Shown: positions 14,617 to 34,906 of the stretch, in pieces
How positions within the stretch are numbered: position 1 is the first letter of the stretch
How the letters are laid out: each line of letters starts with the position of its first letter
NCBI GenBank assembly: GCA_958295875.1
Contig: OY282379.1
Location: 62,001-126,000 of the forward strand
DNA length: 64,000 nucleotides
Origin: an uncultured Pseudomonadales bacterium
GTDB taxonomy: Bacteria; Pseudomonadota; Gammaproteobacteria; Pseudomonadales; Azotimanducaceae
Direction: 5' to 3'
Translations under genes and position numbers: made by a program
Notes under the pieces: model-generated
The model's database searches: none
What the model saw: only the letters and a program-made list of their open reading frames with translations
Told to the model about the DNA's origin: nothing

Positions 14617-16092
14617 TCAGCGCGGTGTCGCTGGCGGCGGCGCCGGTCCGAACGGATTGGCGTTGCGCCACCAACCCAGCCCCAAGTCTTGGGCGGGATC
14701 GTAGTTGGGATTGTGGGTGGGAAGCTTCGTGCCCACGCTCGCCAAGTAGCTTTTGAGCTCGGCAAAGAGCGCGTTCGCCACAGCCGGGCGGAACCGCGAC
14801 AAGTCCGTGGTTTCACCCAAGTCGAGCGACAGGTCGAAGAGATATGCGCGCTCTGCATCGAGCTCCCAGACGAGCTTGTGGTCACCGCGCCGAATGGCAG
14901 CCTGCGGGGCGACGTGCTTCATGTTGCGATAGGCGCCGTAGTACCAAATCAGCGCCTCGGTGCCGCGCTCCACGTCGCCTTGGCCATCATTGGCCAGCAC
15001 CTCGCGCAAGCTGCCGCCATCGATGTCATCCGCCAAGGCGTTGGTGGCGCCCACCCAATCCTTGATGGTCGGCAGCAAGTCGTAACCGATGGCCGGCACA
15101 TGGCTGCGCGAACCGGCCCGGATGCCCGGGCCGCTGATGAAGAGGGGCACACGGATGCCACCTTCGAACACATGCGTCTTGCCAAGGCGCAGGGGGCGGT
15201 TGTTGGTGACATAGCCATCCGCTTCGCCGCCGTTGTCCGACGTGTAGATGACGTAGGTGTCCTCATCGAGGCCAAGTGCTTCCAAGGCGTCCAGGATGCG
15301 GCCAACGCCCGCGTCCAATTCGGCGGTCATCGCGGCATAGGCCGTGTTGGTGTGGTTCGTGCTCGCCATGTCTTTGAACGCATCGATGGTCTCGCCCTTG
15401 GCCAGCACCGGCGTGTGGACGGCGTAGTAGGACACTTGCGCGAAGAACGGTCGCCCCGACTCGGCGTGCTCGCGAATGAAGGCAATGGCCTCGTCCGTCA
15501 CGGCGCCGGAGCGTTTCGGGTCTGGCGCGCCGGCACGTCCTTCGGCGTTCGTGGTGAGGCCGCTATGCGCATCGTAACCGTGCAGCGCGGGAGACTCGCC
15601 ACCCATGTGCCACTTGCCGAAGTGCCCCGCCGCGTAGTCGGCGTCGTGCACCTTCAAGAACTCCGCGATGGTGATTTCGGCGTCCGCCAGATGCGCTACC
15701 GGCAACGGCACCACCATCGGCTTGTTGACGTACATGGCGTCGTGGAAGAACTGGATGCCGGCCACCCCTTCTGCGTTTGGCACGACGTCGATGATGTCGG
15801 TGGCGCCGAGACGCGCCGCGGTCTTGCCCGTTTGGATGCTCATGCGCGTCGGCGAACAATTGGGCGCCGGCGAATAAGCATTTGAGAACGTCATGCCCCG
15901 CGCGGCGATGCGCTCCAGGTTCGGCGTCCGATACAAGTCGCTCACCGCTCCCGGCACGCGGTCGTCCATTTGCACGGACGAACCGGTCCAACCTTGGTCG
16001 TCCGCCAAGATCAAGACGATGTTCTGCGCCGCGGCATGGCTCGACGCGGCCACCACGGCCACCGCCAAGCCACGCCACACGCTGCGTTTCAC
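14617..16092 (-). CDS. Sulfatase (formylglycine-dependent), secreted
   Basis: A 491-residue alkaline-phosphatase-fold sulfatase. A signal peptide ends in SSHAAA, after which the mature protein opens with NIVLILADDQG, where the paired Asp residues bind calcium. The maturation motif CSPTRMSIQTG fits C-x-P-x-R-x4-TG; its Cys is converted to formylglycine by FGE. The GKWHMGG, HTPV and TSDNGG segments supply further active-site residues. GTG 16092 is chosen because the signal peptide begins there, though no strong ribosome site is seen. It probably removes sulfate esters from an imported or extracellular glycan or ester. It lies 38 bases downstream of a TonB receptor in the same direction, with a TPR-sulfotransferase further upstream. 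Confidence 0.87.
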   Translation of the reverse strand: MKRSVWRGLAVAVVAASSHAAAQNIVLILADDQGWTGSSVQMDDRVPGAVSDLYRTPNLERIAARGMTFSNAYSPAPNCSPTRMSIQTGKTAARLGATDIIDVVPNAEGVAGIQFFHDAMYVNKPMVVPLPVAHLADAEITIAEFLKVHDADYAAGHFGKWHMGGESPALHGYDAHSGLTTNAEGRAGAPDPKRSGAVTDEAIAFIREHAESGRPFFAQVSYYAVHTPVLAKGETIDAFKDMASTNHTNTAYAAMTAELDAGVGRILDALEALGLDEDTYVIYTSDNGGEADGYVTNNRPLRLGKTHVFEGGIRVPLFISGPGIRAGSRSHVPAIGYDLLPTIKDWVGATNALADDIDGGSLREVLANDGQGDVERGTEALIWYYGAYRNMKHVAPQAAIRRGDHKLVWELDAERAYLFDLSLDLGETTDLSRFRPAVANALFAELKSYLASVGTKLPTHNPNYDPAQDLGLGWWRNANPFGPAPPPATPR

Positions 16093-16130: not shown

Positions 16131-18524
16131 CTACGACTGGCCGAAGATCAGCCGCAAGCCGATGGTGCGCGGCTGATTGGTGGTGACGCGGGGATCGTAG
16201 TAGCCGCTGTTCTGGAATATCTCGGCGCGCTCGTCCGTCGCGTTGGTGACGAACACCTCCGCCGCCCAACTGCCGAACGACATGCCGCCGCGCAATTGCA
16301 GCAGCGAGTACGCATCCATGATGACCGGCGCTTGCTCGCTTTGCCGCGCCAACAGGTTCCAACGCTCGTCCGTATATGACCAAGCGGCGTGCCCGTAGAC
16401 CTCGCGGCCATTGTTCAACGGCCGCGTATAGCGCAGACCGAGCGTGTACGACCACTCGGGCACATGGGCGAGGCGCCGTCCATCCTCGGCATAGACGAAG
16501 CGCTCTTCCCGGGCGATGGTGGCGAAATCGCCCTCCAACTCGGCGGTGTTGTAGGCGACGCCGGCGCGCAGTTCCAAGTTGTAGCTGAGCCGCGCCGTTA
16601 GATCCACCTCCACGCCGCGGATCTGCGAGCCTTCCACGTTGCGGCGAAACTCGAAGGGCACGGTGAGCAGGTCATACAGCGTCGTCTGGAAGTTCTCCCA
16701 GTCGATGACATAGGCGGCGCCGTTCAAATGCACCCTGCCGTCGCCGAGGGTCGCCTTCCAGCCAATCTCGTAAGACTTCGTGTAGTCCGCCTGCACGAAC
16801 ACGGGCACCTCTTCGTGCGTGACGTTCGGGTTGCGGAAACCAGGACGCACGCCCTCGCCGTAGCCGAAGTAGACGAGCAAGTCATCGGTCAAGTCGTAAC
16901 GAACGTTGAACTTGTACGTCTCCTCGCGGATGTCCGGCGCTTGCTCGTTACGGTCGAACCCGCCCTTGGATTCCCACCCGTAGCCGCAGCTATAGCCCCA
17001 GTCGTCGCCGTCTTCCCACTGGAAGAAGCGCATCCCCGCCGACACGGTGAGGCGATCGCTGAAGTCCCACGAGACGTCTCCAAACACGGCGCTGACGTAG
17101 TCCTCGTATTTCCAGCCTGGGCAGCTCCACCACTCTTGCGGGAGCGGGTCCACGGCTTCGCGGCGGATGTAGTCTCCCGCCGGGCCGTTGTCGAAGTTGA
17201 TGTTGGGCATGCGCCAAAACAGGTAGCCGTTGCCCCAAGTCCGTTCGTGATAGGCGCCGACCAGCCAATTCATGCGGCTGCCATCGTCCGTCTTGGAGGT
17301 GAGCCGCACTTCATGCGCCACGCGGGAGGCGTTGTCCTCATGGTCGAAGTAGATGCTCGGGTCGCTGCAGCCCGTGGAGCTGTACCAGTAATAGTCCTCA
17401 CAGGCGTGCTGCTGGATCCAACTGCCGAACGATGCGTACTCCACATAGTCTGAGTAGTCATTGACGGCCAGATCTTGGCGGTCGTAGTACGAGCCGGCGT
17501 AGATGATGTCGCCGATGGGCGTCTCGCCAGTCAGCGTGAAGGCGTATTGCTTGGTGTCCACATCCACCCGCTCCGGGCCAAAGCGAGCCACCACCAAGTC
17601 TGACCTGCGGGTCGGGTCGTGGTCCCAAGCGCCGTCGGCCTCCAAAGTCTGGCTCAAGGCGGAGAGCGTGGCCTGCCATGTGTCGTTCAGGTCGAGGGAC
17701 AGGGCGAGCCGCCCGCCAGTGGTGGTCTCGTCGTTGTAGTCCTTCTCGGCCCAGCGGTCATTGTTCACGGTCACGCCGTTGCGGTAGACGCGCTCCTCAC
17801 GCACGTTGTCCACAAAGCCGTTGGACTGCGAATGCCAAATCACGCCACGCGCCGCCATCCGGTCAGACAAGGGCACGTTGACGAACCCCTTCGCCTCATA
17901 GGTGGTGTCGCCGTGGGCGATGCTGCCGCCCGAAATCTCGGAGCCGTAGTCGAACGCTTCCGTATCCGGCTTGTTGGTGATGATGCGCACGGTGCCGGAC
18001 ACGGCCGAGGCGCCGTAGTAGGTGCCTTCCGGGCCGCGCAGCACTTCGATGCGCTCGATGTCGTAGAGGTGGATGTCTGGCGGGCCGCCGCGCCGCCCGC
18101 TCACCGGTTGCTCGTCCAGATAGTAGGCGGTGGTCGCCTCGTTGGTGCGGCCGATATGCGGGATGCCGCCATCCGCGACGCCGCGGATGTGCATGATCTG
18201 GCTGCCCGGGCCGACGCTGATGTAGGAAATCGAGGCGGTTTGATCCGCAAAGTCCTCGAAGCGCGAGATGTCGAGTTGCTCGATGTCGTCTGCGGTGAAC
18301 GCTTGGATGCTCACCGGCGTGTCTTGGATGTTGGACTCGCGCTTGCGGGCAGTGACGATGACCTCTTCAATCGCCGGCTGCGCGCCCTCTTCTTCCGCCG
18401 CCTCTTGGGCCAAGGCCGGCGCCGCAGCCATGCCGGAAGCCGCCGTGATGGCCAGAGCCAGCCGCGAGGGCTGAAAGCGCTGTGCGGCGCCGCCACGCCG
18501 CGCGGGGGACTTTCGGTTCAACAT
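16131..18524 (-). CDS. TonB-dependent outer-membrane receptor
   Basis: A 797-residue receptor. The Ala-rich signal peptide ends near PALAQ. Next come a TonB box-like EEVIVTARKR, a plug domain with IRGVADGG and IERIEVLRGPEGT..GASAVSGTVRIITNKP, and a beta-barrel ending GLRLIFGQS. It imports a ligand across the outer membrane using TonB energy; the ligand is unknown. ATG 18524 has a GAGAGG ribosome site. Several features (YLDEQPVS, RIITNKP, QTLEADGAWDHDP) are shared with the receptor at 39970-42819, so the two form one subfamily. It lies between a TPR-sulfotransferase and a sulfatase, suggesting a sulfated ligand or a sulfated partner protein (inference). Confidence 0.92.
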   Translation of the reverse strand: MLNRKSPARRGGAAQRFQPSRLALAITAASGMAAAPALAQEAAEEEGAQPAIEEVIVTARKRESNIQDTPVSIQAFTADDIEQLDISRFEDFADQTASISYISVGPGSQIMHIRGVADGGIPHIGRTNEATTAYYLDEQPVSGRRGGPPDIHLYDIERIEVLRGPEGTYYGASAVSGTVRIITNKPDTEAFDYGSEISGGSIAHGDTTYEAKGFVNVPLSDRMAARGVIWHSQSNGFVDNVREERVYRNGVTVNNDRWAEKDYNDETTTGGRLALSLDLNDTWQATLSALSQTLEADGAWDHDPTRRSDLVVARFGPERVDVDTKQYAFTLTGETPIGDIIYAGSYYDRQDLAVNDYSDYVEYASFGSWIQQHACEDYYWYSSTGCSDPSIYFDHEDNASRVAHEVRLTSKTDDGSRMNWLVGAYHERTWGNGYLFWRMPNINFDNGPAGDYIRREAVDPLPQEWWSCPGWKYEDYVSAVFGDVSWDFSDRLTVSAGMRFFQWEDGDDWGYSCGYGWESKGGFDRNEQAPDIREETYKFNVRYDLTDDLLVYFGYGEGVRPGFRNPNVTHEEVPVFVQADYTKSYEIGWKATLGDGRVHLNGAAYVIDWENFQTTLYDLLTVPFEFRRNVEGSQIRGVEVDLTARLSYNLELRAGVAYNTAELEGDFATIAREERFVYAEDGRRLAHVPEWSYTLGLRYTRPLNNGREVYGHAAWSYTDERWNLLARQSEQAPVIMDAYSLLQLRGGMSFGSWAAEVFVTNATDERAEIFQNSGYYDPRVTTNQPRTIGLRLIFGQS

Positions 18525-18742
18525 GACTGCCTCTCCAGGAAACTCAATCGGGCAAGACTACTCCATGCGCCACGCGGCTGAAACCCGCTTGCGGGCGGGC
18601 GCCCGTTGCGTCAAACAAGGCATGGAGGGCTTGACCGCGGCGCATCTGCCCCATTTCGCCCCTGCCACCATCGCCCGCGATGGCAATGCCAAGCCGCCGA
18701 GCGTGCGGGCCGGCAAGTACCCTCCTGGGCCGCGCCGGGCCC

Positions 18743-20743
18743 TCAGCGCTGCCAAGCATCCAACGCTGGCCCAAGCGCCGCCTTGAGCGAGCCCAAGTGC
18801 GCCTCGAACGCTTGCCACTGCGTCTTGGCCTGTTGGTAGATCGGCCGCCGCACCTGTTCCGCGCTGGCGGTGCGCACCACGCGCCGCGTTTCATGGAACC
18901 GCAAACAGGCAGGCTCGAAGGCCAGCCCGCAGCCATCAAGCAGCGAGCGCGTTTCCGCCTCGGTGGCATCCACCATGCGCTCGTAGATGACGCGATGCAC
19001 ACGCCCGGGCAACACCCGGTCCCAATGCGCCATCACCCCCAAGTAGCCGCGGTAGTACGCGGCAAGCGCGTCCAAATCGTAGCCGAACGCCTGGCCGCGG
19101 GCGAAGCTCTGCTTGAAGATGCTGAAGCAGCAACCGAGCGGATGCCGGCGCGCATCGACGAACACGGCCGCCGGCAACATGCAGGCGATGAGGCCAACGT
19201 GCATGAAATTATTTGGCATCTTATCGACGAAGAACGGCGCATCGCCACGATATGGGCGCGTCTCTTCCAGGTAGCGTTGGCCCAGCGCGTTGAAATCCGC
19301 CGGCGACATCCCCTCGACGGCGGCCGGATAGCCCGGCGGCTTGCCGCCGCGTTCGGGATCCATTTCCCGCACGTAACCCAAGATGTGGGGCAACTCCATG
19401 GTACCGCGCACTTGGCTGTGCGAGGACAGGATCTGATCCACGAGCGTGGAGCCGGAACGCGGCAGGCCGACGACAAAGATCGGCGTGGCGCCCGGCGCCG
19501 CTGGTGCCTGTTTGCGCTCGATGCGCGCCGCGGTGAACGTCTCTTGGAGCCGCCGGCATTGGCGCTCGAAGCGCTCCACGTCGAAAGATTCGTGGCGACG
19601 GCGAATGGCGTTGCCGCGCCGATAGTGCTCAAAGGCGTCATCGACCGCGCCGGCATCCTCCGCGGCCTTGCCGAGGGCGAAGCGAACCGCGGCGCGGTCG
19701 CGATCGCCCAAGCTCTCCTGATCGAGCACGCGCCGCATAGCCGCCACTTCCGTATCGGAGAACGCATAGGTCTTGAGGTCGGCGAGGCTCCACCACGCTT
19801 CGCCGAGTTGCGGCGCCAAGCCCAACGCCGCCTTGTAGGCGCGCTCGCTGCCGGCGCGATCGCCGAGCGCCTTCTGCACATGGCCGAGCGAGAGCTGCAC
19901 GCGCGGCTGCCGCGGCGCGATGGCGAGGGACTGCTTGAACGCGCGCGCCGCTTCCGCTTGCTTCAAACCCCCAGCGCAGACGGTGCCGAGCGTCGTCCAA
20001 CTCTCCGCCAACTCCGGGTTGAGGACTGTTGCGCGCCGCGCCGCCGCCTCGGCGGGTTCGAACTGGCCCCGGTTCATGTGCCACCGCGCCATGCCCCGAT
20101 GCGCATGGCTAGTGTTCGGCGACACGGACAGCGCATGCTTGAGCAGGCGCTCCGCATCGCCCGGCGCGTTGCCGTCGAGGGCGGCGTTGGCCAAGCCGAT
20201 TAGCGCGTGGACATGGTTCGGGTCTGCCCGCAGGATGTCGCGGTAGATGGCCTCCGCTTGCCGCGCGTCGCCGTCGGCGGCCGCCTGCACCGCGCGGCGC
20301 ATGTCCGCAAAGAAGCGATCGACCTCCACCGCTTGGCGTTGCGCGGCGCGCGCGGCCACCGGCTTGTCATTGTCGAAGAGGGTGTCCGCGTAGGCCTGCC
20401 ACGCCTTGGCCGCACGCGGGTGGCGCTCGCAGAAACCAGCCAGCACCGTTTCGGCTTCGGCGCCGCGCTCGGCTTGCCGGCAGACGCCGGCGAGTTCCAC
20501 CGCCGCGGCCTCCAAGTCTGGCGCGTCCTGCAGTGCGCGGGCAAGGTGGCCGATCGCCTCCTTCAAGCGCCCGGCGCTCGCGCATACGCGGCCGAGCAAC
20601 AGCCGCGCCTGCGCTTCGCTGGGGTGCGCGTCCAAGAGCGCCCGCAACGCAGTTTCGCCACGACGCAGTTCGCCTTCGCGCAACAGCCGCTCGGCGTGCT
20701 GCAGCGCTCCCGAAGCGGCGTCCGGCGGGGATGGCGGACTCAT
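18743..20743 (-). CDS. TPR-repeat sulfotransferase
   Basis: A 666-residue fusion. The first 400 or so residues are tetratricopeptide helices (for example AEAIYRDILRADPNHVHALIGLANAAL). They are followed by a Sulfotransfer_3-type domain with the PAPS 5'-phosphosulfate loop GLPRSGSTLVDQIL near residue 425, DKMPNNFMHVGLI, VDARRHPLGC and HWDRVLPGRV. Such enzymes move sulfate from PAPS to an acceptor, and the TPR part presumably holds a protein or peptide. There is no signal peptide, so it acts in the cytoplasm. ATG 20743 is the only good start. It lies 218 bases upstream of a TonB receptor in the same direction and is paralogous to 37888-39918. Confidence 0.88.
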   Translation of the reverse strand: MSPPSPPDAASGALQHAERLLREGELRRGETALRALLDAHPSEAQARLLLGRVCASAGRLKEAIGHLARALQDAPDLEAAAVELAGVCRQAERGAEAETVLAGFCERHPRAAKAWQAYADTLFDNDKPVAARAAQRQAVEVDRFFADMRRAVQAAADGDARQAEAIYRDILRADPNHVHALIGLANAALDGNAPGDAERLLKHALSVSPNTSHAHRGMARWHMNRGQFEPAEAAARRATVLNPELAESWTTLGTVCAGGLKQAEAARAFKQSLAIAPRQPRVQLSLGHVQKALGDRAGSERAYKAALGLAPQLGEAWWSLADLKTYAFSDTEVAAMRRVLDQESLGDRDRAAVRFALGKAAEDAGAVDDAFEHYRRGNAIRRRHESFDVERFERQCRRLQETFTAARIERKQAPAAPGATPIFVVGLPRSGSTLVDQILSSHSQVRGTMELPHILGYVREMDPERGGKPPGYPAAVEGMSPADFNALGQRYLEETRPYRGDAPFFVDKMPNNFMHVGLIACMLPAAVFVDARRHPLGCCFSIFKQSFARGQAFGYDLDALAAYYRGYLGVMAHWDRVLPGRVHRVIYERMVDATEAETRSLLDGCGLAFEPACLRFHETRRVVRTASAEQVRRPIYQQAKTQWQAFEAHLGSLKAALGPALDAWQR

Positions 20744-22122: not shown

Positions 22123-22401
22123 ATGCTCGAAATCCACTGCCCATATTGCGGCGAATCGCGCAGCGAGGAAGAGTTCTCGTATGCCGGCGAGGCGCACATC
22201 CGGCGGCCGAGCGACCCAGCCGGGCTGGATGACCGCGCGTGGGGCGACTACCTGCACTTTCGGAGCAATCCACGCGGGGCGCACCGCGAGTTGTGGTTCC
22301 ACGCCGCCGGCTGCCGGCGCTACCTCAACGTGCTGCGTGACACGGCCAGCTATCAGATCTCCCAGACGTATCGCGTGGGCGAAAGCCCGGAGGATGTCTA
22401 A
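22123..22401 (+). CDS. soxD: Sarcosine oxidase delta subunit
   Basis: A 92-residue zinc-binding delta subunit of heterotetrameric sarcosine oxidase. The zinc ligands C6, C9, H60 and C64 (HCPYCG and FHAAGC) match the family. The complex oxidatively demethylates sarcosine to glycine in the cytosol, passing the C1 unit to tetrahydrofolate and making peroxide. The stop codon overlaps the soxA start (TAATG), a sign of translational coupling. The length is normal for the family. Confidence 0.93.
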   Translation: MLEIHCPYCGESRSEEEFSYAGEAHIRRPSDPAGLDDRAWGDYLHFRSNPRGAHRELWFHAAGCRRYLNVLRDTASYQISQTYRVGESPEDV

Positions 22402-25400
22402 TGAGCGCTGGCGGCGCATCGCTCCCCACTTCTTCGCACCCCGCCCACACACCCGCGCGCCCCGCCCACTCACCCGCGCGGCGCCTGCCCGCCGGCGGGC
22501 GCATCGACCGTTCGCAGCCGCTGCGGTTCACTTTCGATGGACGTTCCATGTCCGGCTTCGGCGGCGATACGTTGGCTTCCGCGCTGTTGGCCAACGGCGT
22601 GGACACCGTGGCGCAAAGCTTCAAGCATGGCCGCCGCCGGGGCATCGTCGGCAGCGGCGCCGAGGAACCGAACGCCATCGTGGACTTGGCCGATGGCGCC
22701 CACCGCATCCCCAACCAACGCGCCACCCAAGTGGAATTGCATGCCGGCTTGGTGGCGACGAGCGGCGCCCGCCGGCCGCTGAAGCGCTTCGCCGGCGCTT
22801 TCGCGGGGGTGATGCCGGCCGGCTTCTACTACAAGTTCTTCATGGGGCCGCCGTGGCTCTGGAGGCGATGGGAAGCGCTCCTGCGGCGCGCCGCAGGCTT
22901 GGGCGCCGTGCCCGCGGGCGCGGACCCGGACACCTACGACAAGCTCAATCACCACTGCGACGTGCTGGTCGTCGGCGGCGGCCCGGCGGGCATTGCAGCG
23001 GCCTTGGCGGCAGCGCGGGTCGATGCCCGCGTCGTCTTGGTCGATGAACAGAACGAGTTCGGCGGCAGCCTGCTGGGTGCCCCGCAGGCCATCGGCGACA
23101 CGCCGGCGACGCAGTGGATCGACGCCGCCATCGAGGAACTGAGCGCCCGCCCGAACGTGGCCTTGCTGCCCCGCGCCACGGCGTTTGGCTACTACGACCA
23201 CAACTTCGTCACCGCGCTGGAGCGCCGCACAGACCATCTCGGCGCCACCTCGCCATCCGCCCCGCGCCAGCGCCTGCATCGCATTCGCGCCAAGCAAGTG
23301 GCCTTGGCCACCGGCGCCGTGGAGCGCCCGGCAACATTCGCCAACAACGACTTGCCCGGCGTGATGCTCGCGAGCGCCGTGGCCACCTATCTCAACCGCT
23401 ACGCCGTGGCGCCCGGCACACGGCTGCTGCTCTTCACGAGCAACGACAACGCCTATCGCACGGCCCTCGATTGGCGCCGCGCGGGGCGTTGCGTCGTCGC
23501 GGTGTCGGACACGCGGCCGGGCCCCGAGGGGGCGCTGGTAGCGCAAGCGGTAGCGGCCGGCATCGAAATCCACAGGGCGCACGCCGTCATCGAAGCCATC
23601 GGCCGCAAGCGCGTCGCCGGGGCGTTGATCGCTCCCTTGAGTGAAGATGGGCGGCGCCTCGCCGCCAAGCCGCGGCGCTTGGATTGCGACCTGATCGCCT
23701 GCTCCGACGGCTGGAGCCCCGCGATTCACCTGAGCTCACAAGCCGGCGCCCGGCCCCGTTGGAACGAAGAAGGGATGATGTTCCTTCCCGGCGCGCCCCG
23801 ACAACCGACCTTGTGCGCCGGCGCCGTCAACGGCGCCATGTCGTTGGCCGCATGTCTGGCAGATGGCGCCGCGGCCGGCGCGCGCGCCGCCCACGCGGCC
23901 GGCTTCGGCGATGCGCGTCCACGCTTTGCCCCGCCGCCAGTGGAAGAGGCCGAAGAAGGCGCCGCCCGCCCCCTCTTCATCGCGCCCCATGTGCAGCCGA
24001 GCAGCCGGGCGCCCAAGCAGTTCGTGGATTTCCAGCTAGACGTGACGGCGGCGGACATCGAACTCGCCGCCCGCGAGGGCTACCGTTCGGTGGAGCACGC
24101 CAAACGCTACACGGCCCTTGGCTTCGGCACGGACCAAGGCAAGCTCGGCAACGTCAACGGCGTCGCCATTTTGGCGCGCGCGCTTGGCCAAGGCATCGCG
24201 GAAACCGGCGTCACCGTGTTCCGCCCCGCGTACACGCCAGTGACGTTCGGCGCCATCGCGGGACGCGACACGGGCGAGTTGTTCGATGCGGAACGCCACA
24301 CGCCGATGCACGCCTGGCACGCTGCACACGGGGCGGCGTGGGAGAACGTTGGCCGCTGGAAACGGCCGTGGCACTACCCGCAAGCCGACGAGACCATGCA
24401 CGATGCGGTGGTTCGGGAATGCCGCAGCGCCCGCCAAAGCGTCGCCATGTTGGACGCCTCCACCCTCGGCAAGATCGACGTCCAAGGCGCCGACGCGGCG
24501 GCGTTTCTAGACCGCATCTATGCCGGCAGCTTCCAGCGGCTTGGCGTGGGCCGCTGCCGCTACGGTCTCATGCTGCGCGAGGACGGCACGATTTTCGATG
24601 ACGGGGTGGCCGCGCGGCTCGCCGACACCCGCTTTCTGCTGCACACCACCACCGGCAACGCCGAGGCGGCGTTGGCATGGCTTGAGCTCTGGCGCCAAAC
24701 CGAGTGGCCAGATCTCGACGTCTACTTCACGTCTGTGACCGACCATTGGGCGACCGCGGCCTTGGCCGGGCCCAAGGCACGGGACGTGCTGCGCCGCGTC
24801 TGCGACGACATCGATCTGTCGCGGGAAGCCTTCCCCTTCATGTCGGTGCGCAGCGGCCATGTCGCCGGCCGCCCGGCGCGGGTCTTCCGCATCAGCTTCA
24901 GCGGCGAGCTCTGCTTTGAGGTCAACGTGGCCGCGCACGACGGCATGGATGTCTGGAACGCCTTGATGGCGGCCGGCGAGCCGTTCGGCATCACCCCCTA
25001 CGGCACTGAGACGATGCATGTGCTGCGGGCGGAGAAGGGCTTCATCATCGTCGGCCAGGACACGGATGGCTCCATGACGCCAGAGGACATGGGCTTGGGC
25101 TGGGCCGTTCGCCACGGCAAGCCCTTTGGATTCATCGGCGACCGTTCGCTGGCCCTCGCAGACCATCGCCGCGCCGACCGGCTGCACTTCGTTGGCCTCG
25201 CGACGACCGACGCTGCCGCGGTGCTGCCGGAAGGCGCGCAAATCGTCGCAGCGTCCACTCGACGCGCAGCGAAGCCAACCACGCCCCGCGCCATGCAGGG
25301 CCACGTCACGTCCAGCTACTTCAGCCCGGCGCTGGAGCGGTCCATCGCGCTGGCGATGCTGAAGCGCGGCCGGGAACGGTTGGGGGAGATCGTTTGTTGC

Positions 25401-25484
25401 CCGCTTGCGGACGGCCGGGAGGTCTCGGCGCAAGTGGTGAACCCCATCTTCTTCGATGCCGAAGGCCGGCGCACCCGTGCCTGA
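22401..25484 (+). CDS. soxA: Sarcosine oxidase alpha subunit
   Basis: A 1027-residue alpha subunit. The N-terminal ferredoxin-like domain (FTFDGRSMSGFGGDTLASAL) is followed by a Rossmann dinucleotide site VVGGGPAGIAAALAAAR near residue 190 that binds NAD. The C-terminal half is a glycine-cleavage T-protein/folate-binding domain (VRSGHVAGRPARVF, GTETMHVLRAEKG, DTDGSMTPEDMGL) that receives the C1 unit. The length is close to the usual 970-1000 or slightly above it. It is coupled to soxD by a 1-base overlap and to soxG by a 29-base overlap. The usual partner gene soxB, which carries the catalytic FAD and the covalent FMN, is not found beside it. Confidence 0.95.
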   Translation: MSAGGASLPTSSHPAHTPARPAHSPARRLPAGGRIDRSQPLRFTFDGRSMSGFGGDTLASALLANGVDTVAQSFKHGRRRGIVGSGAEEPNAIVDLADGAHRIPNQRATQVELHAGLVATSGARRPLKRFAGAFAGVMPAGFYYKFFMGPPWLWRRWEALLRRAAGLGAVPAGADPDTYDKLNHHCDVLVVGGGPAGIAAALAAARVDARVVLVDEQNEFGGSLLGAPQAIGDTPATQWIDAAIEELSARPNVALLPRATAFGYYDHNFVTALERRTDHLGATSPSAPRQRLHRIRAKQVALATGAVERPATFANNDLPGVMLASAVATYLNRYAVAPGTRLLLFTSNDNAYRTALDWRRAGRCVVAVSDTRPGPEGALVAQAVAAGIEIHRAHAVIEAIGRKRVAGALIAPLSEDGRRLAAKPRRLDCDLIACSDGWSPAIHLSSQAGARPRWNEEGMMFLPGAPRQPTLCAGAVNGAMSLAACLADGAAAGARAAHAAGFGDARPRFAPPPVEEAEEGAARPLFIAPHVQPSSRAPKQFVDFQLDVTAADIELAAREGYRSVEHAKRYTALGFGTDQGKLGNVNGVAILARALGQGIAETGVTVFRPAYTPVTFGAIAGRDTGELFDAERHTPMHAWHAAHGAAWENVGRWKRPWHYPQADETMHDAVVRECRSARQSVAMLDASTLGKIDVQGADAAAFLDRIYAGSFQRLGVGRCRYGLMLREDGTIFDDGVAARLADTRFLLHTTTGNAEAALAWLELWRQTEWPDLDVYFTSVTDHWATAALAGPKARDVLRRVCDDIDLSREAFPFMSVRSGHVAGRPARVFRISFSGELCFEVNVAAHDGMDVWNALMAAGEPFGITPYGTETMHVLRAEKGFIIVGQDTDGSMTPEDMGLGWAVRHGKPFGFIGDRSLALADHRRADRLHFVGLATTDAAAVLPEGAQIVAASTRRAAKPTTPRAMQGHVTSSYFSPALERSIALAMLKRGRERLGEIVCCPLADGREVSAQVVNPIFFDAEGRRTRA

Positions 25485-25998
25485 CGCGACGACGCTGCGC
25501 GGGCCACGCCGCCAAGCGTGCCTCAGCTTGCGTGCCCAACCCACCGCGTCCTTGCGCGGCGCAGTGGCAACGGCGCTAGGCGTTGAGTTGCCGGTAGCGC
25601 CATGCACCCATCGCCGTGCCGGGGAGCGGGCCCTCCACTGGCTGGGGCCGGACGAGTGGCTGGCGACGGCCCCCGCCGGCACCGAGGACGCCCTGCAAGC
25701 CGCCCTGCGCGCCGCGCTCACCGGGCACTTCGCTGTGACGGACGTGAGCGGCGCTTGGCGTTCGTTCAACCTCGCAGGGCCTCGCGCCATCGAGGTGTTG
25801 CGCAAGTCCAGCCCGTGTGATTTCCACCCCCGCGCCTTTGCGCCGGGCCGATGCGTCCAAACCGTGTTCGCCAAGGCGACGGCGCTCATCGCCTGCAACG
25901 CCGACGGCGATTTCGACGTGATCACGCGCACCAGCTACGCAGACTATCTGCGCCACTGGCTTGAGGTTGCCACGCTCGAACACCCAGCATCACCCTGA
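25456..25998 (+). CDS. soxG: Sarcosine oxidase gamma subunit
   Basis: A 180-residue gamma subunit with the family pattern LHWLGPDEWLATAP, VTDVSGAWRSFNLAGPRAIEVLRKSSPCDF and TVFAKATALI. It is a structural subunit of the heterotetramer resembling the folate-binding T-protein fold. It starts inside soxA (ATG 25456, 29 bases before the soxA stop), typical for this operon. It ends 94 bases before a TonB receptor in the same direction. Confidence 0.92.
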   Translation: MPKAGAPVPDATTLRGPRRQACLSLRAQPTASLRGAVATALGVELPVAPCTHRRAGERALHWLGPDEWLATAPAGTEDALQAALRAALTGHFAVTDVSGAWRSFNLAGPRAIEVLRKSSPCDFHPRAFAPGRCVQTVFAKATALIACNADGDFDVITRTSYADYLRHWLEVATLEHPASP

Positions 25999-26092
25999 GC
26001 GCCGTCGATGCGCTAGCCGCCCGCCGCCGCATCGCCACCAAACGCCAGCCGCAAAACTGCGAAAATGCGCCGAGCTGCCTAAGGAGCACCCT

Positions 26093-28726
26093 ATGCTCAG
26101 ATCGCCACTGCGCCTTTCCACCCTAGCCCTCGCCAGTAGCGCGTTGCCGGGCGCTGCGTTGTTCGCGAACGAGCCCGACGCAGACGCTCAATTCGGCGCG
26201 GTGGAGGAGATCGTGGTGGTGGCGTACACCGGAAGCCGCGTCAAACGCCATGCGACGTCGCCATCGCCACTGTCCGAGTATGACGCCGACGAACTGGCGG
26301 ACTACGCCATCAAGGACGTGCGAGACCTCGTCGGCCGCCTGCCCACCAACAGCGGCGCCGAGAACAACGCAGACAACCTGACGCAGAACTTCACCGCCGG
26401 CACCGCCAACATCAACCTGCGGGGCCTCGGCGTCGCCTCCACCTTGGTGTTGTTGAACGGCAAGCGGCAGGTGCTCTCTGCGGTGCAAACCGATGACGGC
26501 GCGAGCTTCGTCGACCTCGCCGCGTTGCTGCCGCTGCTGGCCATCGAGCGGGTGGAGGTGCTGAAGGACGGCGCCTCCGCCATCTACGGCTCAGACGCCG
26601 TGGCCGGCGTCGCCAACTTCATCACCAGGCGCGACTACGAAGGCGCGGAGCTGCAGCTTGAATACCGCAATCGCGTCAGCGACGGCAGCCAAGACGACGT
26701 GTATGTGGACGGCGTGGTGGGCGGTCGCCTGAGCGAAGGCGGGTCGTTCCTGCTCGCCGCAAGCTACCTGGACCGCAGCAGCCTGTTGCTCGGCGAGGTG
26801 GATTGGCTGCGCCCGACAACGAGTGGCTTCGGCAATCCGGCGAGCTTCAACGTGCCCTCCCTGGGCCGCACCGTGGCGGATGCCAATTGCGAACGCTACG
26901 ACGGCCTGCTGCAGACGCTGGCCAACGGCAGCACCCTGTGCCGCTTCGACTTCGGCCCGCAAATCACCGCAGTGCCGGAGGAAGAGCGGGTGCAAGCCTT
27001 CGCCCGGGTGAATTGGCAAATGCGTGGCGGGACGCGCCTGTGGGCCGAAATCGGCTACGCCCGCAACGATGTGCGTCGCGACGTGTCGCCGAGCTTCCCG
27101 GTGCTCAATACCCCCTTGGTGCCAGCCGACCACCCCGCCAACCCCTTCGGCGAGGCGGTTTACTTCCAAGGGCGCCCTTACGGCTTCGGCTACGCGCCGG
27201 AGATCAACTACTACCAGCACGACACGCATCGGCTGGCGTTGGGCTTGGAGGGCGACGCCGGCAGCTTGGCATGGGATGCAACCTATGTGTGGGGCGCGAA
27301 CGACGCGGTGCTGAATCCACGCGACGTGATCGGCGCCAACTTCCAAGCGGCGTTGTTGGGGTTTGGCGGCGATGACTGCGACACCGGCCCCACGGCCATG
27401 CCACCGGCCCGCCCCGGGGCCGGCGCGTGCCGCTACTTCAACCCCTTCAGTTCGGCGTTTTCCGCGCGCCCCGGCGACGCGACCTACAACGACCCTGCCC
27501 TCAAGGGCTTCATCATCGGCGACTATCTGGGCGACGCCGAATCTGGGCTGCGCGCGTTCGAAGCGAACCTGACGGGGGAACTCTGGACACTGCGCAACGG
27601 CGCGGTCGGCTTCGCCGCTGGCGCGCAGTGGCGCGACCAATCCTCAGGCACGGCTTACGACTCCATCACCCAAAGCGATGGCTTCGCTTTCCTCATCGGC
27701 AACTCCAACTTTTCCGGGGCCTTGGATTCCTACGCCGTGTATGGCGAGCTTTGGCTGCCGCTCGCGCCTTGGCTCGAAGTCACCGGGGCGGTGCGCTTCG
27801 AGGACTACGGCGGCGACATCGGCAACACGCTGGACCCAAAGCTGGCCGTCTTCGCCTCGCCAACGGAGGCGCTCACCCTGCGCGCCTCTTTCGGCACCTC
27901 GTTCCGCGCGCCATCGCCGTTCCAGACCCAAGGCGCGCAGACGAACTTCGTGAACATCACAGACCATGACGGCGCAACCACGTTCGCCGGGCGGCGCACC
28001 CTCGGCGACCCCACCCTGCAGCCAGAGACCTCGCGCACCGCGAGCGTCGGCGCGTCCTGGGCGTTCCACGATGACATGGAACTCGACATCGACTTCTGGG
28101 ACTACTCTTTCGAGGATGTGCTGCGCAAGGAGAACGCGCAGGCCATCGTCAACGCCGACCCCTTCGATGCGCGCGTCGAGCGCACCTCCGCCGGCACTGT
28201 GGCCATCGTCAACGTCGCCTTCATCAACGCCGATGCCATCGACACCCGCGGGGCAGACCTGCACGTGCATGGCCGTTTCGACACGCGCATCGGGGTGTTG
28301 GCGCCCTATGCCGAGGGCACCGTCGTGCTGGCGTACGACGTGACCAACGCCGGGCGGCGCGTGGATGGCTTGGGACGCCTGAACCGCGCCAATGTCGGCG
28401 CCCCCAATCAGCAGTTCAAGGCCGTCGCCGGCGTCGGCTTGGAACGGGGCAGCCTAGCCGCCAACCTGCAGGTGCGCCACGTCGGCGGCTATGAGGACGA
28501 CGGCGGCGGCGACATCGACGCCTTCACCACCTTTGACGCCAATGTCACCTTCAATTTGGCCGAGCGCGTGTGGCCGGGGACCGACACCTCGATCACGCTC
28601 GGCGTCATCAACCTCGCCGACCAAGACCCGCCCTACGTCAACGTGGCCGGCAGCTACGATGTGCGCTCCGCCGACCCGCGCGGCCGCAGGGTGTTCGCGC
28701 GGTTTGCGATGCGCTTGGAGCGATGA
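26093..28726 (+). CDS. TonB-dependent outer-membrane receptor
   Basis: An 877-residue receptor. ATG 26093 has an AAGGAG ribosome site and begins a signal peptide (LSTLALASSALPGAALFA). Following segments: TonB-box-like EEIVVVAYTGSRVKR, a plug with NINLRGLGVASTLVLLNGKRQ and ERVEVLKDGASAIYGSDAVAGVANFITRR, and a large barrel ending RRVFARFAMRLER. The GSDAVAGVxN pattern belongs to the outer-membrane receptor subfamily often found for oligomeric or nitrogen-containing nutrients, but the ligand is unproven. It follows soxG by 94 bases and converges with the carnitinyl-CoA dehydratase gene (9-base gap), so the ligand may be a quaternary amine or a compound containing one (inference). Confidence 0.92.
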   Translation: MLRSPLRLSTLALASSALPGAALFANEPDADAQFGAVEEIVVVAYTGSRVKRHATSPSPLSEYDADELADYAIKDVRDLVGRLPTNSGAENNADNLTQNFTAGTANINLRGLGVASTLVLLNGKRQVLSAVQTDDGASFVDLAALLPLLAIERVEVLKDGASAIYGSDAVAGVANFITRRDYEGAELQLEYRNRVSDGSQDDVYVDGVVGGRLSEGGSFLLAASYLDRSSLLLGEVDWLRPTTSGFGNPASFNVPSLGRTVADANCERYDGLLQTLANGSTLCRFDFGPQITAVPEEERVQAFARVNWQMRGGTRLWAEIGYARNDVRRDVSPSFPVLNTPLVPADHPANPFGEAVYFQGRPYGFGYAPEINYYQHDTHRLALGLEGDAGSLAWDATYVWGANDAVLNPRDVIGANFQAALLGFGGDDCDTGPTAMPPARPGAGACRYFNPFSSAFSARPGDATYNDPALKGFIIGDYLGDAESGLRAFEANLTGELWTLRNGAVGFAAGAQWRDQSSGTAYDSITQSDGFAFLIGNSNFSGALDSYAVYGELWLPLAPWLEVTGAVRFEDYGGDIGNTLDPKLAVFASPTEALTLRASFGTSFRAPSPFQTQGAQTNFVNITDHDGATTFAGRRTLGDPTLQPETSRTASVGASWAFHDDMELDIDFWDYSFEDVLRKENAQAIVNADPFDARVERTSAGTVAIVNVAFINADAIDTRGADLHVHGRFDTRIGVLAPYAEGTVVLAYDVTNAGRRVDGLGRLNRANVGAPNQQFKAVAGVGLERGSLAANLQVRHVGGYEDDGGGDIDAFTTFDANVTFNLAERVWPGTDTSITLGVINLADQDPPYVNVAGSYDVRSADPRGRRVFARFAMRLER

Positions 28727-28735
28727 TCGCGGCGG

Positions 28736-29518
28736 CTACTCCCCCTTCCAAACGGGCGCGCGCTTCTCGGCGAACGCCACGGCGCCTTCAAGCTGGTCCT
28801 CGCTGTCGTAGAGGCCATCGACGGTGGCGAATTGCCGCTTGCCGATGCGGCTCAGCGCATCTTGCGCAGACATGGCCTCTGCTTCCCGCACCACCTCCTT
28901 GATGGCCGCATACACCAGCGGCGGGCCGCTCTCCAGCGTGCGGGCGAGTTCCCAAGCGCGGTCCAGCAGGCGCTCCGGCTCCAGCACCTCGTTGACGAGG
29001 CCCCAACGGTGCGCTTCGCCAGCGTCCATCCAACGCCCGGTCAGCAGCATTTCCATGGCAATGTGATACGCCACCCGCTTCGGCAGCTTCACGGCGGCGG
29101 CGTCGGCCAGCGTGCCAGCACGAATCTCCGGCAGCGCGAAGGCGGCGGCGTTGGAGGCGAGGATAAGGTCGCACGACAACGCCAACTCCCAGCCGCCGCC
29201 AACGGCCAAGCCGTTCACCGCGGCGATCATGGGCTTGTTCAGCCTTGGCAACTCTTGAACGCCACCAAAGCCGCCCACGCCGTAATCGCCATCCACCGGG
29301 TCTCCCGCGGCGGCGGCCTTGAGGTCCCACCCGGCGCAGAAGAACCGCTCCCCGGCCCCGGTGATGATGGCGACACGCAGCGTCGGGTCGTCCCGGAACG
29401 CCTTGAAGGTCTCGCCCATCTCGCGGCTGGTGGCCAGATCGATGGCGTTCGCCTTGGGACGGTCAAGCGTCACTTCCAGCACGCCGCCCTCGCGCAGAGT
29501 TCGAATGGTCTCGCTCAC
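28736..29518 (-). CDS. caiD: Carnitinyl-CoA dehydratase-like crotonase
   Basis: A 260-residue crotonase closely resembling E. coli CaiD from end to end: the start LEVTLDRPKANAIDLATSREMGE, the oxyanion-hole GAGERFF, the end FAEKRAPVWKG. The catalytic glutamates E111 (GGGWELALS) and E131 (FALPEI) fall at the same numbers as in CaiD. The reaction is reversible hydration of crotonobetainyl-CoA to L-carnitinyl-CoA in the cytosol. The GTG start at 29518 overlaps the stop of the acyl-CoA synthetase gene by 4 bases (GTGA), so the two are translationally coupled. It is the last gene of the carnitine-type operon. Confidence 0.88.
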   Translation of the reverse strand: MSETIRTLREGGVLEVTLDRPKANAIDLATSREMGETFKAFRDDPTLRVAIITGAGERFFCAGWDLKAAAAGDPVDGDYGVGGFGGVQELPRLNKPMIAAVNGLAVGGGWELALSCDLILASNAAAFALPEIRAGTLADAAAVKLPKRVAYHIAMEMLLTGRWMDAGEAHRWGLVNEVLEPERLLDRAWELARTLESGPPLVYAAIKEVVREAEAMSAQDALSRIGKRQFATVDGLYDSEDQLEGAVAFAEKRAPVWKGE

Positions 29519-31581
29519 TTACTGCCCTCCCGAATTCGAATCAGTGCATCAAGCGCCACGGCGCCCTGGCCTTCTGGTAACACGGCCAAGGGATTGACGT
29601 CCAACTCCTCCACCGCGCCGGGGTGCGCCGCGCCGAAGCTGGCGATCGCGAGGATCGCCGCCACCGCGGCCTGCACATCACCGGCGGGCTGCCCGCGGTA
29701 GCCGTGCAACAGTGGCGCACAGCGCAGCGCCGCCAAGGCATCGCGCACCGCCTCCGCGCTGGTTGGCAGCAGCAGCGTCACGCTGTCGCCAGCGAGCTCC
29801 ACCAAGACGCCGCCGGACCCCACCATGAGGAGGATGCCGAACTGCGCGTCGCGCTGAAGGCCGACAATCAGCTCGCAAACGGCAGCGCCGACATGGCGCT
29901 CCACCAGGAGACCGTCTCCCAACGGCAACAGCGCTTGCGCCGCGGCGCACACTTGGGCTTCGCCCCGCAGGCCAATCCGCACCGCGCCCTGTTCCGTCTT
30001 GTGCGCCACACCTAACGCCTTCATCACCACCGCGCCGCCCAACGTTGCCGCAAGGGCCACCGCCGCGTCCGCATCCCGTGCCACGCCCCCTGCCGGCACG
30101 GCGACGCCGAAGCGCCGCAGACGCGCCTTGGCCGCGGCTTCGTCCAGCACTTGCGGGGCCGCGGCGGCCACCGCCGGCGCCAGCGCCGGCGGCGCTGCCG
30201 GCCGTTGCCACGCGGTGCCCACAAACGCGGCGGCCTCCAACGCGGCCAGCCCCTCGCCCAAGCCGCAGAGCGGCGCGATGCCACGCGCCAGCAACGCTTC
30301 CGCCCAAGATTCCGGCATGTTCTCCGCCAACGTGGCGAGCACCGCACCGGTCGCGTTGGCGTGGCGCAGGGCCTGCTCGAACGCACGCGCCGTCACCTGC
30401 CATTCCGCATCGTCGCAGCGGTCGGCCCTTGGGACGTCCAACACCAGCACGTTGGCGTCGAAGCCGGCTGCCGCGAACGCGGAGAAGGTCGCCGTGAGCG
30501 CCGCTTCGTCGCCCCAGCTAAAGGTGTGGTAGTCGAGCGGGTTGGCCACATGCACCAGTGGATGGGTGGTGGCCGCCACCGTCGCGGCTTGCTCCGATGT
30601 GAGCGCCGGCAGCGAGAGGCGTGTGTTCGCCACAGCGTCCGCCATCAGGCCGGCCTCGCCACCGGAGCAGCTCAGGGAACCGATGCGGCGGCCACGCAAC
30701 GGGCCATGCGCGTGGAGGAACTTCAACGCTTCTACGAAGTCTGCGAGACCACGCGCCCGCGCCACGCCCAGGCGCGACAGCAGCGCCTCGGCGCCGGCGT
30801 CCGCCCCGGCGATGGACGCCGTGTGACTCAACGCCGCCGCCGACCCGGCCGTTGAGCGCCCCACCTTCAAGGCCACCACCGGCACACGCCGCGCCCGCGC
30901 CTGGCTCGCCAACGCCTCCATGCCGGCCATCGAATCGAACGCCTCGACGTGCAACCCGATTGCGCTCACGCGGTCGTCTTCCAACAGCGCCAGCGCCAGT
31001 TGCGAGAGGCCGAGCTGTGCTTGGTTGCCAGCGGTGACCATGTAGGCGATGGGCAGGCCGCGCCGCTGCATGGTGACGCTGATGGCGACATTCGAGGACT
31101 GCATGACGATGGCGACGCCGCGGCCATCGGCGCCGAGGCGCTTGCCGCCGTGTTGATCCGGCCACAGCGGAACGCCGTCCAGAAAATTGATGAGGCCGTA
31201 GCAGTTCGGGCCCACGAGCGGCATCTGCGCCGCTGCAGCCACCAACTCCTCCTGCAACTCCGCCCCGCCGGCTTCGAGAAAGCCGGCCGCGTAGCAGATG
31301 GCGCCACCCGCGCCGGTGTCAGCCAAAGCGGCCACCGCCTCCACCGCGGCATGGCGGTTAACGCCCACGAACGCGGCGTCGGGCACGCCCGGCAGCGCCG
31401 CCACGCAACGATAAGCAGTGCGGCCGGCGACTTGGGAGCGAGTGGGGTGTACCGGCCAAACCTCGCCCTGGAAGCCCATCCGTTCGCACTGCTCCGCCAC
31501 CCGCGCCGCCGCGACGCCGCCGATCACGGCAACGCTGCGCGGCCGCAGCAGCCGGTGGAGGGGGGCGATGGGCGCGGCCAT
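29515..31581 (-). CDS. NDP-forming acyl-CoA synthetase (fused alpha-beta)
   Basis: A 688-residue enzyme of the acetate-CoA ligase (ADP-forming) superfamily. The order is an N-terminal CoA-binding domain (RSVAVIGG, VGPNCYGLIN), a ligase-CoA domain with the phospho-His segment ALSHTASIAGAD, and a C-terminal ATP-grasp domain (AVVMKALGVAHKTEQGAVRIGL, LDVNPLAVLPEG). It makes acyl-CoA from an acid with ATP. Placed between a crotonase and an acyl-CoA dehydrogenase, it may activate gamma-butyrobetaine, crotonobetaine or carnitine in place of CaiC (inference). The stop overlaps the caiD start. It lies 15 bases after the dehydrogenase gene. Confidence 0.87.
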   Translation of the reverse strand: MAAPIAPLHRLLRPRSVAVIGGVAAARVAEQCERMGFQGEVWPVHPTRSQVAGRTAYRCVAALPGVPDAAFVGVNRHAAVEAVAALADTGAGGAICYAAGFLEAGGAELQEELVAAAAQMPLVGPNCYGLINFLDGVPLWPDQHGGKRLGADGRGVAIVMQSSNVAISVTMQRRGLPIAYMVTAGNQAQLGLSQLALALLEDDRVSAIGLHVEAFDSMAGMEALASQARARRVPVVALKVGRSTAGSAAALSHTASIAGADAGAEALLSRLGVARARGLADFVEALKFLHAHGPLRGRRIGSLSCSGGEAGLMADAVANTRLSLPALTSEQAATVAATTHPLVHVANPLDYHTFSWGDEAALTATFSAFAAAGFDANVLVLDVPRADRCDDAEWQVTARAFEQALRHANATGAVLATLAENMPESWAEALLARGIAPLCGLGEGLAALEAAAFVGTAWQRPAAPPALAPAVAAAAPQVLDEAAAKARLRRFGVAVPAGGVARDADAAVALAATLGGAVVMKALGVAHKTEQGAVRIGLRGEAQVCAAAQALLPLGDGLLVERHVGAAVCELIVGLQRDAQFGILLMVGSGGVLVELAGDSVTLLLPTSAEAVRDALAALRCAPLLHGYRGQPAGDVQAAVAAILAIASFGAAHPGAVEELDVNPLAVLPEGQGAVALDALIRIREGSK

Positions 31582-31596
31582 GGCGTTCGCGGCGCC

Positions 31597-32757
31597 CTAA
31601 GCGCCCCGCGGCCGCAGCAGTTCGCGCCCGATGATGTGGCGCTGAATCTCCGATGTGCCATCCCAGATGCGCTCCACCCGGGCATCGCGCCAGAACCGAG
31701 CGAGCGGCAAATCGCTCATGAGGCCCATGCCGCCGTGGATCTGCACAGCCTCGTCCGTCACTCGCGCCAGCATCTCAGAGGCATAGAGCTTCGCCGACGC
31801 GATCTCGCGGTTCGCCGGCAGCCCTGCATCCAAGCGCCAAGCGGCGGCCAGCGTCAGCCAGTCCGCCGCGTCCATCTCGGTCGCCATGTCAGCGAGTTTG
31901 AAGGCCACGCCCTGAAAACGACCGATGGGTTGGCCGAACTGCTGCCGCTCGGCGGCGTGGGCGAGCGCCAAATCGAAGGCGCGACGCGCCCGCCCCACGC
32001 ACATCGCCGCCACCGTGAGGCGGGTGCCGTAGAGCCACTCGTTCGCCAGCTCGAAACCGCGGTGGGGCTCGCCGAGCACCTGCGCCGAGGACAGCCGGCA
32101 ATCATCGAAGGTGAGGATGCAGTTGTGGTAGCCGCGGTGCGACACGGATTCATATCCGGAGCGGATGTCGAAGCCCGGCGTGCCGCGGTCCACCAGAAAG
32201 CAGGTGATGCGCTTCTTCGGGCCGTTGGCGGTGGACTCCTCGCCCGTGGCCACGAACACGATCACGAAGTCTGCGATGTCCGCATGGGAAATGAAGTGCT
32301 TGGCGCCGTTGAGCAACCAGTCGTCACCAACGGGGCGCGCCGCGCATTGCATGCCGCGCAGGTCGGAGCCGGCGGCCGGTTCCGTCATGGCCAACGCATC
32401 AAAGCGTTCGCCACGCACGGCGGGATGGAGGTAACGCTCGCGCTGCTCTGCGTCGCAGGCCATGAGGATGCCGGACGGACGCCCCCAGAACACCGTGAGG
32501 GCCATGGCGGCGCGGCCCAGTTCGCGTTCGAGCAAGGTGAAGGTGAGGTGGTCCAAACCGCCACCGCCAACCGCCTCCGGCAAGTTCGGCGCGAAGAAGC
32601 CGAGCGCTTGCACCTTGCGGGCGATGTCTTGGCCGATCTCCGGCGGCACACGCCCAGCGCGCTCCACTTCCTCCTCAAGGGGGTAGAGCTCCTGCTCCAC
32701 GAATTCGCGCACGGTGTCGACCACCAGCTGCTGCTCTTGAGAGAGACCGAATTGCAT
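31597..32757 (-). CDS. Acyl-CoA dehydrogenase, possible (gamma-butyrobetainyl/crotonobetainyl)-CoA type
   Basis: A 386-residue FAD-dependent acyl-CoA dehydrogenase with the three usual domains. The ALAMTEPAAGSDLRG and AKHFISHADIADF segments bind FAD and substrate, RQQFGQPIGRFQ is the ACAD signature 2 region, and IHGGMGLMSD is present. Where many enzymes have catalytic Glu in YEGTSEIQR, this one reads RIWDGTSEIQR, so Asp replaces it. No Glu stands at the alternative base position of the isovaleryl-CoA group either. It is predicted to introduce the double bond into gamma-butyrobetainyl-CoA, from its place in the carnitine operon (inference). ATG 32757; 15 bases from the downstream synthetase gene. 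Confidence 0.82.
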   Translation of the reverse strand: MQFGLSQEQQLVVDTVREFVEQELYPLEEEVERAGRVPPEIGQDIARKVQALGFFAPNLPEAVGGGGLDHLTFTLLERELGRAAMALTVFWGRPSGILMACDAEQRERYLHPAVRGERFDALAMTEPAAGSDLRGMQCAARPVGDDWLLNGAKHFISHADIADFVIVFVATGEESTANGPKKRITCFLVDRGTPGFDIRSGYESVSHRGYHNCILTFDDCRLSSAQVLGEPHRGFELANEWLYGTRLTVAAMCVGRARRAFDLALAHAAERQQFGQPIGRFQGVAFKLADMATEMDAADWLTLAAAWRLDAGLPANREIASAKLYASEMLARVTDEAVQIHGGMGLMSDLPLARFWRDARVERIWDGTSEIQRHIIGRELLRPRGA

Positions 32758-32766
32758 GGCTTAGCT

Positions 32767-32785
32767 TGCCCAAGCGGACTGGGCA
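32767..32785. promoter_or_regulatory. 6-bp inverted repeat in the lcdH to acyl-CoA dehydrogenase gap
   Basis: TGCCCA (32767-32772) and TGGGCA (32780-32785) form a perfect inverted repeat with 7 bases between, ten bases upstream of the dehydrogenase ATG. The 134-base gap between lcdH and this gene is the longest in the minus-strand set. The repeat may be an operator or an RNA hairpin; six base pairs is weak evidence. Confidence 0.25.
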
Positions 32786-32891
32786 TCATACGCCTGTTCG
32801 GTTGCCAAAGCCGTCGGGCGCGTGCGGCAGCCGTCACGCCAAACTCCCCGCTTCAGCGAGGGTGCCGACGCTTGCGGGCAAGCTCTGCGTG

Positions 32892-34780: not shown

Positions 34781-34906
34781 ATGTCTGCTCCGTTGCGGAC
34801 GCGCCAGCCCACTGTAGCGCACCACGAACGGCACCGGAAGAAGCGCGGCGCTGCCCATCGGCACCGATGCGGCGAGGGCGTGGCCGCCGGCGACGACTGT
34901 GGATGG

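Follow-up and report, generated by a model that had tools for sequence, protein, structure and literature searches.

A conserved gene pair of a TonB-dependent receptor and a TPR-sulfotransferase, with a proposed sulfation of tyrosines in receptor loop L4

The DNA analyzed here, which we call the window, is a stretch of 64,000 nucleotides from an uncultured Pseudomonadales bacterium, and it contains two pairs of genes in which a TonB-dependent receptor (TBDR) is encoded beside a sulfotransferase (ST) carrying TPR repeats. The genes and features of the two pairs and their immediate surroundings are listed below.

18743–20743, minus strand: ST1, cytosolic TPR-sulfotransferase, 666 aa; TPR repeats at approximately residues 9–410 and a TPST-like catalytic domain at approximately residues 411–666; Sulfotransfer_3, E 6e-46
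19457–19459, 19394–19396, 19220–19222, and 18863–18865, minus strand: codons of the ST1 catalytic residues R429, E450, K508, and S627, respectively
16131–18524, minus strand: TB1, TBDR partner of ST1, 797 aa; Plug and TonB_dep_Rec domains
17352–17456, minus strand: Tyr-rich extracellular loop L4 of TB1, residues 357–391
14617–16092, minus strand: exported sulfatase 3′ of TB1; PF00884, E 4e-40; CSPTR motif
37888–39918, minus strand: ST2, second TPR-sulfotransferase, 676 aa; Sulfotransfer_3
39970–42819, minus strand: TB2, TBDR partner of ST2; the chosen start is the ATG preceding MTRTTWERNKLS
41620–41748, minus strand: loop L4 of TB2, approximately residues 358–400
36850–37827, plus strand: Asp/Asn beta-hydroxylase family gene (PF05118), convergent with ST2
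36215–36859, plus strand: small Sulfotransfer_2 family gene (PF03567), overlapping the Asp/Asn beta-hydroxylase gene

An initial annotation of the window had described both pairs as co-directional and opposite in order, and the ORF coordinates and domain matches show that this is real: on the minus strand, pair 1 reads ST1, then TB1, then the sulfatase, and pair 2 reads TB2, then ST2. The strings YLDEQPVS and ITNKP, by which the receptors had been assigned to one subfamily, are also found in the sequence. ST1 and ST2 are 38% identical, TB1 and TB2 are 30% identical over their main segment, and the Sulfotransfer_3 profile matches the two STs at E 6e-46 and 6e-51. The window belongs to a genome of one 3.75-Mb contig, in which the Plug domain has 33 matches. 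Sulfotransfer_3 matches it in 10 places, and a full TPR-ST query matches ST1 and ST2 only, both of which adjoin a TBDR. By a rough estimate, the chance that a TBDR is the immediate neighbor of an ST is 2% per gene, or about 4e-4 for both pairs. Elsewhere in this genome (locus L106, 1.430–1.443 Mb), near-identical ORF starts at positions 8406 and 10491 of the locus (MTGRTLPPDGTDETRPAP), and a second such pair at 4976 and 10013 (MPRPSLIRIGVLPDG), adjoin two Sulfotransfer_3 matches and are probably a tandem duplication. A further TPR-rich protein, of 1258 aa, is encoded in the window at 44897–48670 (plus strand), just downstream of a tRNA-Leu gene (44283–44369).

To obtain a set of related pairs, we scanned genome contigs with ST1 and ST2, which gave 80 related ST loci. 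In 77 of these 80 loci, the ST and a TBDR are separated by no more than about 2.4 kb; mostly the two are adjacent, usually with fewer than 400 bases between them. Two of the three loci without a nearby TBDR are short contigs (L007 and L051), and the third is L066. There (L066:9950–13968), a close ST is directly followed by a BCCT transporter gene rather than a TBDR, and the two genes apparently sit beside ribosomal protein genes, with an S6-like ORF at 14160 and an L9-like ORF at 15771. The 69 complete pairs fall into three arrangements: ST then TBDR, co-directional (41); TBDR then ST, co-directional (15); and the two genes on opposite strands (13).

So that genomes were not selected for the pair itself, STs and TBDRs were then searched for independently of each other in two samples, one of 56 gammaproteobacterial genomes and one of 219 genomes from the phylum. 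In the larger sample the best 4–5 candidates per genome were scored, so that the counts are of best candidates. Matches were called close above 700 bits for the ST and above 550 bits for the TBDR, with duplicates left out. In these evenly drawn genomes, a TBDR adjoins 17 of the 18 close STs among the best candidates, although the neighbor of one of the 17 (G198:C2) is a more distant TBDR, and the single exception is the ST of G017:C20 (L242). Conversely, 16 of 17 close clade TBDRs, again among best candidates per genome, adjoin an ST; the one that does not is a TB2 paralog in the genome of the window itself, at 395–398 kb. This paralog is flanked by carA-carB on one side and by a truncated copy of carB on the other (L105:2073–10556, 390–398.6 kb of the genome). 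The truncated and the full carB share their first residues, a hint that part of the gene was duplicated upon arrival of the receptor gene. The co-occurrence that the initial annotation had proposed is thus clearly beyond chance, and the TBDR with its TPR-ST is a real, conserved, and widespread two-gene module, kept in alpha- and gammaproteobacterial lineages in all three arrangements. We found no description of this pairing in the open-access literature, subscription papers and preprints being outside that scope.

More distant TPR-sulfotransferases also occur as tandem arrays (L226:2628–15352, L236:3756–15001, and G040:C31:91375–96962). In the two arrays checked (L226 and L236) no TBDR was detected nearby, which suggests other targets for the wider family. 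The motif S-x-[ED]-Q-V is missing in 59 of 77 other TPR-ST matches, many of these 59 being cut by the ends of their loci.

The two families have also diverged together. Across 69 pairs, the distances among STs and among their partner TBDRs correlate with a Mantel r of 0.85, whereas the highest value reached in 2000 permutations was 0.31. The nearest relatives of ST1 are those of L001 and L002, and the same holds for TB1, while ST2 and TB2 both group with L036, L063, L071, L076, and L080. Because each pair groups with matching pairs, the two modules of the genome belong to distinct lineages, a pattern for which the species tree by itself does not account.

Apart from the receptor and the enzyme, the surroundings vary between loci. 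Clustering of neighboring genes over 81 regions revealed no third conserved gene beside the pair; the next clusters reach at most 15 of 81, and the 15-member cluster looks like ORFs in overlapping frames. Frequent neighbors are oxidoreductases of the DAO/sarcosine-oxidase type (13/81 regions), BCCT betaine/carnitine/choline transporters (10/81), amidohydrolases, acyl-CoA dehydrogenases, and Rieske oxygenases. In the window, positions 22401–34864 and 57421–59868 encode a sarcosine-oxidase-alpha type protein, ECH, CoA ligase, acyl-CoA dehydrogenase, 3HCDH, BKACE, and a family III CoA-transferase, a set that would fit carnitine or betaine catabolism by resemblance. The initial annotation had placed a sulfatase in the module as well. 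It does follow the receptor at pair 1, where its ORF opens at 16455 with a likelier start at a GTG near 16092, and it retains the formylglycine-type motif CSPTR. A phmmer search of the 80 loci matched this sulfatase itself and no relative, however, which rules it out as a module member, and because no relative occurs at any related locus, the suggestion that a neighboring sulfatase recycles sulfate is unsupported.

Other modifying enzymes do lie near some modules. The Sulfotransfer_2 and Asp/Asn beta-hydroxylase genes at 36215–37827 (plus strand), overlooked in the initial annotation, recur as a duo at L242:2154–3502, beside the close ST that has no TBDR. Asp/Asn beta-hydroxylase relatives are found at a minority of modules (L026, L035, L057, L062, and L070), and at L035 a DUF6445 gene lies 5′ of an ST. 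These neighbors suggest that several side-chain-modifying enzymes may serve the receptors of TBDR-ST pairs.

We next consider what the enzyme resembles. With the whole AlphaFold2 model of ST1 (mean pLDDT 92.3) as query, the top Foldseek matches were TPR proteins only, and it was VIA-align that brought out the catalytic domain. In the VIA-align comparison, residues 414–666 match human TPST1 with Z 22.0 over 240 residues (rmsd 2.7 Å, 20% identity) and the catalytic domain matches TPST2 with Z 21.8, whereas the small-molecule ST domains among the chains compared score lower (olefin synthase ST, Z 18.2; CurM, Z 17.7). By sequence, the catalytic domain alone matches TPSTs at E 0.0015–0.02. The TPR part is nearest to O-GlcNAc transferase (OGT; Z 21.9, VIA-align). 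The catalytic residues of TPST2 are R78, E99, K158, and S285 (PMC5562738), to which R429, E450, K508, and S627 of ST1 correspond, all invariant in 58 STs; K508 and S627 align with TPST in the sequence alignment, and the equivalence of E450 is that of the ungapped register from R429, from which a gapped HMMER alignment differs. In the sequence alignment, the substrate-binding arginines of TPST1 (R102, R106, and R285) are absent at the equivalent positions of ST1, which has ELPHI where TPST1 has ETRIIPR and A626 where R285 would be, R621 and R624 being close by. We treat the contacts of these arginines to acidic substrate positions as a feature of specificity rather than one that defines the family, and since they are missing at the same positions, the target specificity of ST1 is not readable from its sequence. 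No signal peptide or membrane anchor is visible in ST1 by eye, and the genome encodes an APS kinase, so PAPS can be made. Fold, PAPS-binding motifs, and catalytic residues fit the prediction that the ST is a TPST-like protein-tyrosine sulfotransferase.

The receptor of pair 1 is modeled as a plug within a 22-strand barrel (mean pLDDT 83.9; PF07715 and PF00593), with FyuA (E 2.7e-36) and FptA as its closest structures. Its strands alternate long and short loops, and the long loops were therefore taken as extracellular. Loop L4, which follows strand 7 of the model, stands out by its tyrosines: they make up 19.8% of L4 in 46 paired receptors versus 4.3% in 24 unpaired ones, and 2.2–5.4% of the other long loops of paired receptors. 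Tyr360 is present in 100% of paired versus 4% of unpaired receptors (invariant in 49 paired), and Tyr357 in 91% versus 8%. In a wider L4 segment, which holds 7 Tyr in 53 aa in TB1 and 8 Tyr in 52 aa in TB2, Tyr is 3.4 times as frequent as in the remainder of the protein; Cys is as strongly enriched and Asp moderately so, whereas Phe and Trp show no enrichment in this comparison. An acidic residue precedes Tyr directly (position −1) in 23.5% of cases in L4 versus 9.7% elsewhere, and an acidic residue at −1 is a main determinant of recognition by human TPSTs (PMC5562738).

How far the Tyr-rich loop can be linked to the ST is limited by descent. Of 53 paired receptors, 47 pass the threshold for a Tyr-rich L4, as do 4 of 25 unpaired ones. 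When 78 receptors are placed on a tree built with L4 left out, however, pairing occupies two clades and one unsure long-branch row, and pairing and Tyr-rich L4 are both largely clade traits. With no more than four independent contrasts (sign test, p = 1), the link between the ST and a Tyr-rich L4 is not established statistically. The Tyr-rich unpaired receptors of L105, L062, and L006 belong to genomes that do hold an ST. The receptor at L214:3269–5800 has 6 Tyr in a 39-residue L4, and no ST of the TPR-ST type was found in its genome (G237), which reflects either loss of the ST or a role of the loop that is independent of it. The paired receptors of L209 and L212, in the second and more distant clade, have only 2–3 Tyr in L4. 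We also considered a tyrosine cluster as a genome-wide signature and rejected it: by densest 30-residue Tyr window, TB1 and TB2 are near the top of the 29 TBDRs of their genome, but equally dense clusters occur in other TBDRs, strand regions among others, and the loop-specific measure was therefore used alone.

From these observations we propose, with moderate confidence, that a dedicated cytosolic TPST-like enzyme sulfates tyrosines in L4 of its partner receptor before export. Of the functions put forward in the initial annotation, receptor sulfation is the best supported, because the enzyme combines a TPST-like domain with an OGT-like TPR arm, because the receptor is its sole constant partner, and because L4 is enriched in Tyr and not in other aromatic residues; for a peptide or a chaperone as the substrate, no conserved gene was found beside the pair in the neighbor clustering, whose coverage of very short ORFs was not systematic. 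We infer the receptor as substrate, tyrosine as target, the timing, and the ligand as follows. The TPR superhelix would hold the unfolded receptor precursor ahead of Sec export, a role modeled on the TPR arm with which OGT guides its protein substrates. The TPST-like domain, with PAPS as donor, would then sulfate Tyr360, Tyr357, and their neighbors in the future L4. Once the receptor is exported and inserted, L4 would be anionic, aromatic, and ligand-facing, and would help catch cationic substrates, for instance compounds of the betaine or carnitine type, for which catabolic genes are often found nearby. Against this scheme, a precursor bearing sulfotyrosine would have to pass the Sec channel.

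An alternative that we consider unlikely, though worth weighing, is that the ST sulfates a peptide or small molecule that the cell makes and secretes and that the receptor recognizes or re-imports, as in a siderophore- or signal-like cycle. TBDRs classically import small ligands, peptides are substrates of TPST-like enzymes, and the RaxST of Xanthomonas sulfates a secreted peptide, RaxX (PMC6637879). The neighbor clustering, in which very short ORFs were not systematically covered, nevertheless gave no conserved biosynthetic, exporter, or precursor gene beside the pair, and a single shared ligand would not predict nearby pathways that differ by locus.

Aromatic cages often bind quaternary amines, and L4 could be such a cage, unmodified, with the ST acting on the receptor elsewhere, at Ser, Thr, or plug sites. 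The distant pairs that keep an ST despite few L4 tyrosines, and the Tyr-rich L4 kept in a genome with no detected ST, speak for this explanation; Phe and Trp would suit a cage equally well, yet they are not enriched in L4, and we regard it as improbable. Similarly doubtful in our judgment is a cytoplasmic metabolic or trapping step in which the ST sulfates or conjugates a substrate imported through the receptor. The amine, betaine, and carnitine catabolic genes near many modules (the BCCT and DAO-type neighbors counted above), including the carnitine-type genes of the window, would agree with such a step, but the OGT-like arm and TPST-like active site indicate protein or peptide substrates, the catabolic context changes while the pair does not, and the Tyr-rich L4 is left unexplained. 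Finally, shared regulation or horizontal co-transfer with no biochemical link would suit three arrangements that include divergent pairs able to share a promoter region, but it is very improbable given that partners are kept over alpha- and gammaproteobacteria in all three arrangements with co-divergence, and that two separate receptor clades have ST partners.

Returning to sulfation of the receptor, we tentatively extend it to a wider proposal, that alpha- and gammaproteobacteria co-encode tyrosine sulfation of a ligand-facing TBDR loop, that bacterial protein sulfation is common beyond one Xanthomonas peptide, and that Asp/Asn hydroxylases and DUF6445 proteins may modify these receptors as well. 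Should sulfation of the receptor hold, it would be a post-translational modification new for outer-membrane transporters of bacteria, carried out by a bacterial enzyme of the TPST-like kind that brings its own arm for binding the substrate, and in many species the gene pair would predict the receptors that are modified. Tyrosine sulfation in bacteria, known from one peptide system, would then extend to an entire class of receptors, and it would suggest how bacteria tune their uptake of cationic nutrients that are scarce. Whether or not sulfation occurs, so strict a pairing of receptor and enzyme over two proteobacterial classes needs explaining.

Among known systems, TPST1 and TPST2 share with ST1 the fold of the catalytic domain and the four catalytic residues R/E/K/S. 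They differ in that the ST is bacterial, has an N-terminal TPR superhelix, and by eye has no signal or membrane anchor, and in that the arginines R102, R106, and R285, through which TPST1 contacts its substrate, are missing from the equivalent places. By its description in the parts of PMC6637879 drawn on here, RaxST is likewise a bacterial ST, modeled on TPST2 and encoded beside its substrate RaxX, which is sulfated before export; the complete RaxX/RaxST cluster is described there from Xanthomonas only. RaxX is a 60-residue peptide with type I export, whereas the substrate proposed here is a TBDR, and those parts mention no TPR arm for RaxST, unlike the TPR-bearing ST of the module (PMC6637879). 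Our neighbor clustering encountered no RaxX-type leader-peptide substrate with a type I exporter beside the ST, and catabolic neighbors instead. In OGT and SPINDLY, too, a TPR superhelix is fused to a transferase domain acting on the side chains of proteins, but here the predicted group is sulfate, and the predicted target is one class of outer-membrane receptor rather than many proteins. On the receptor side, the TonB-dependent siderophore and nutrient receptors FyuA, FptA, and FhuA have the same architecture of a plug and a 22-strand barrel, from which the module receptor differs by its Tyr-rich L4 and the dedicated sulfotransferase gene alongside it.
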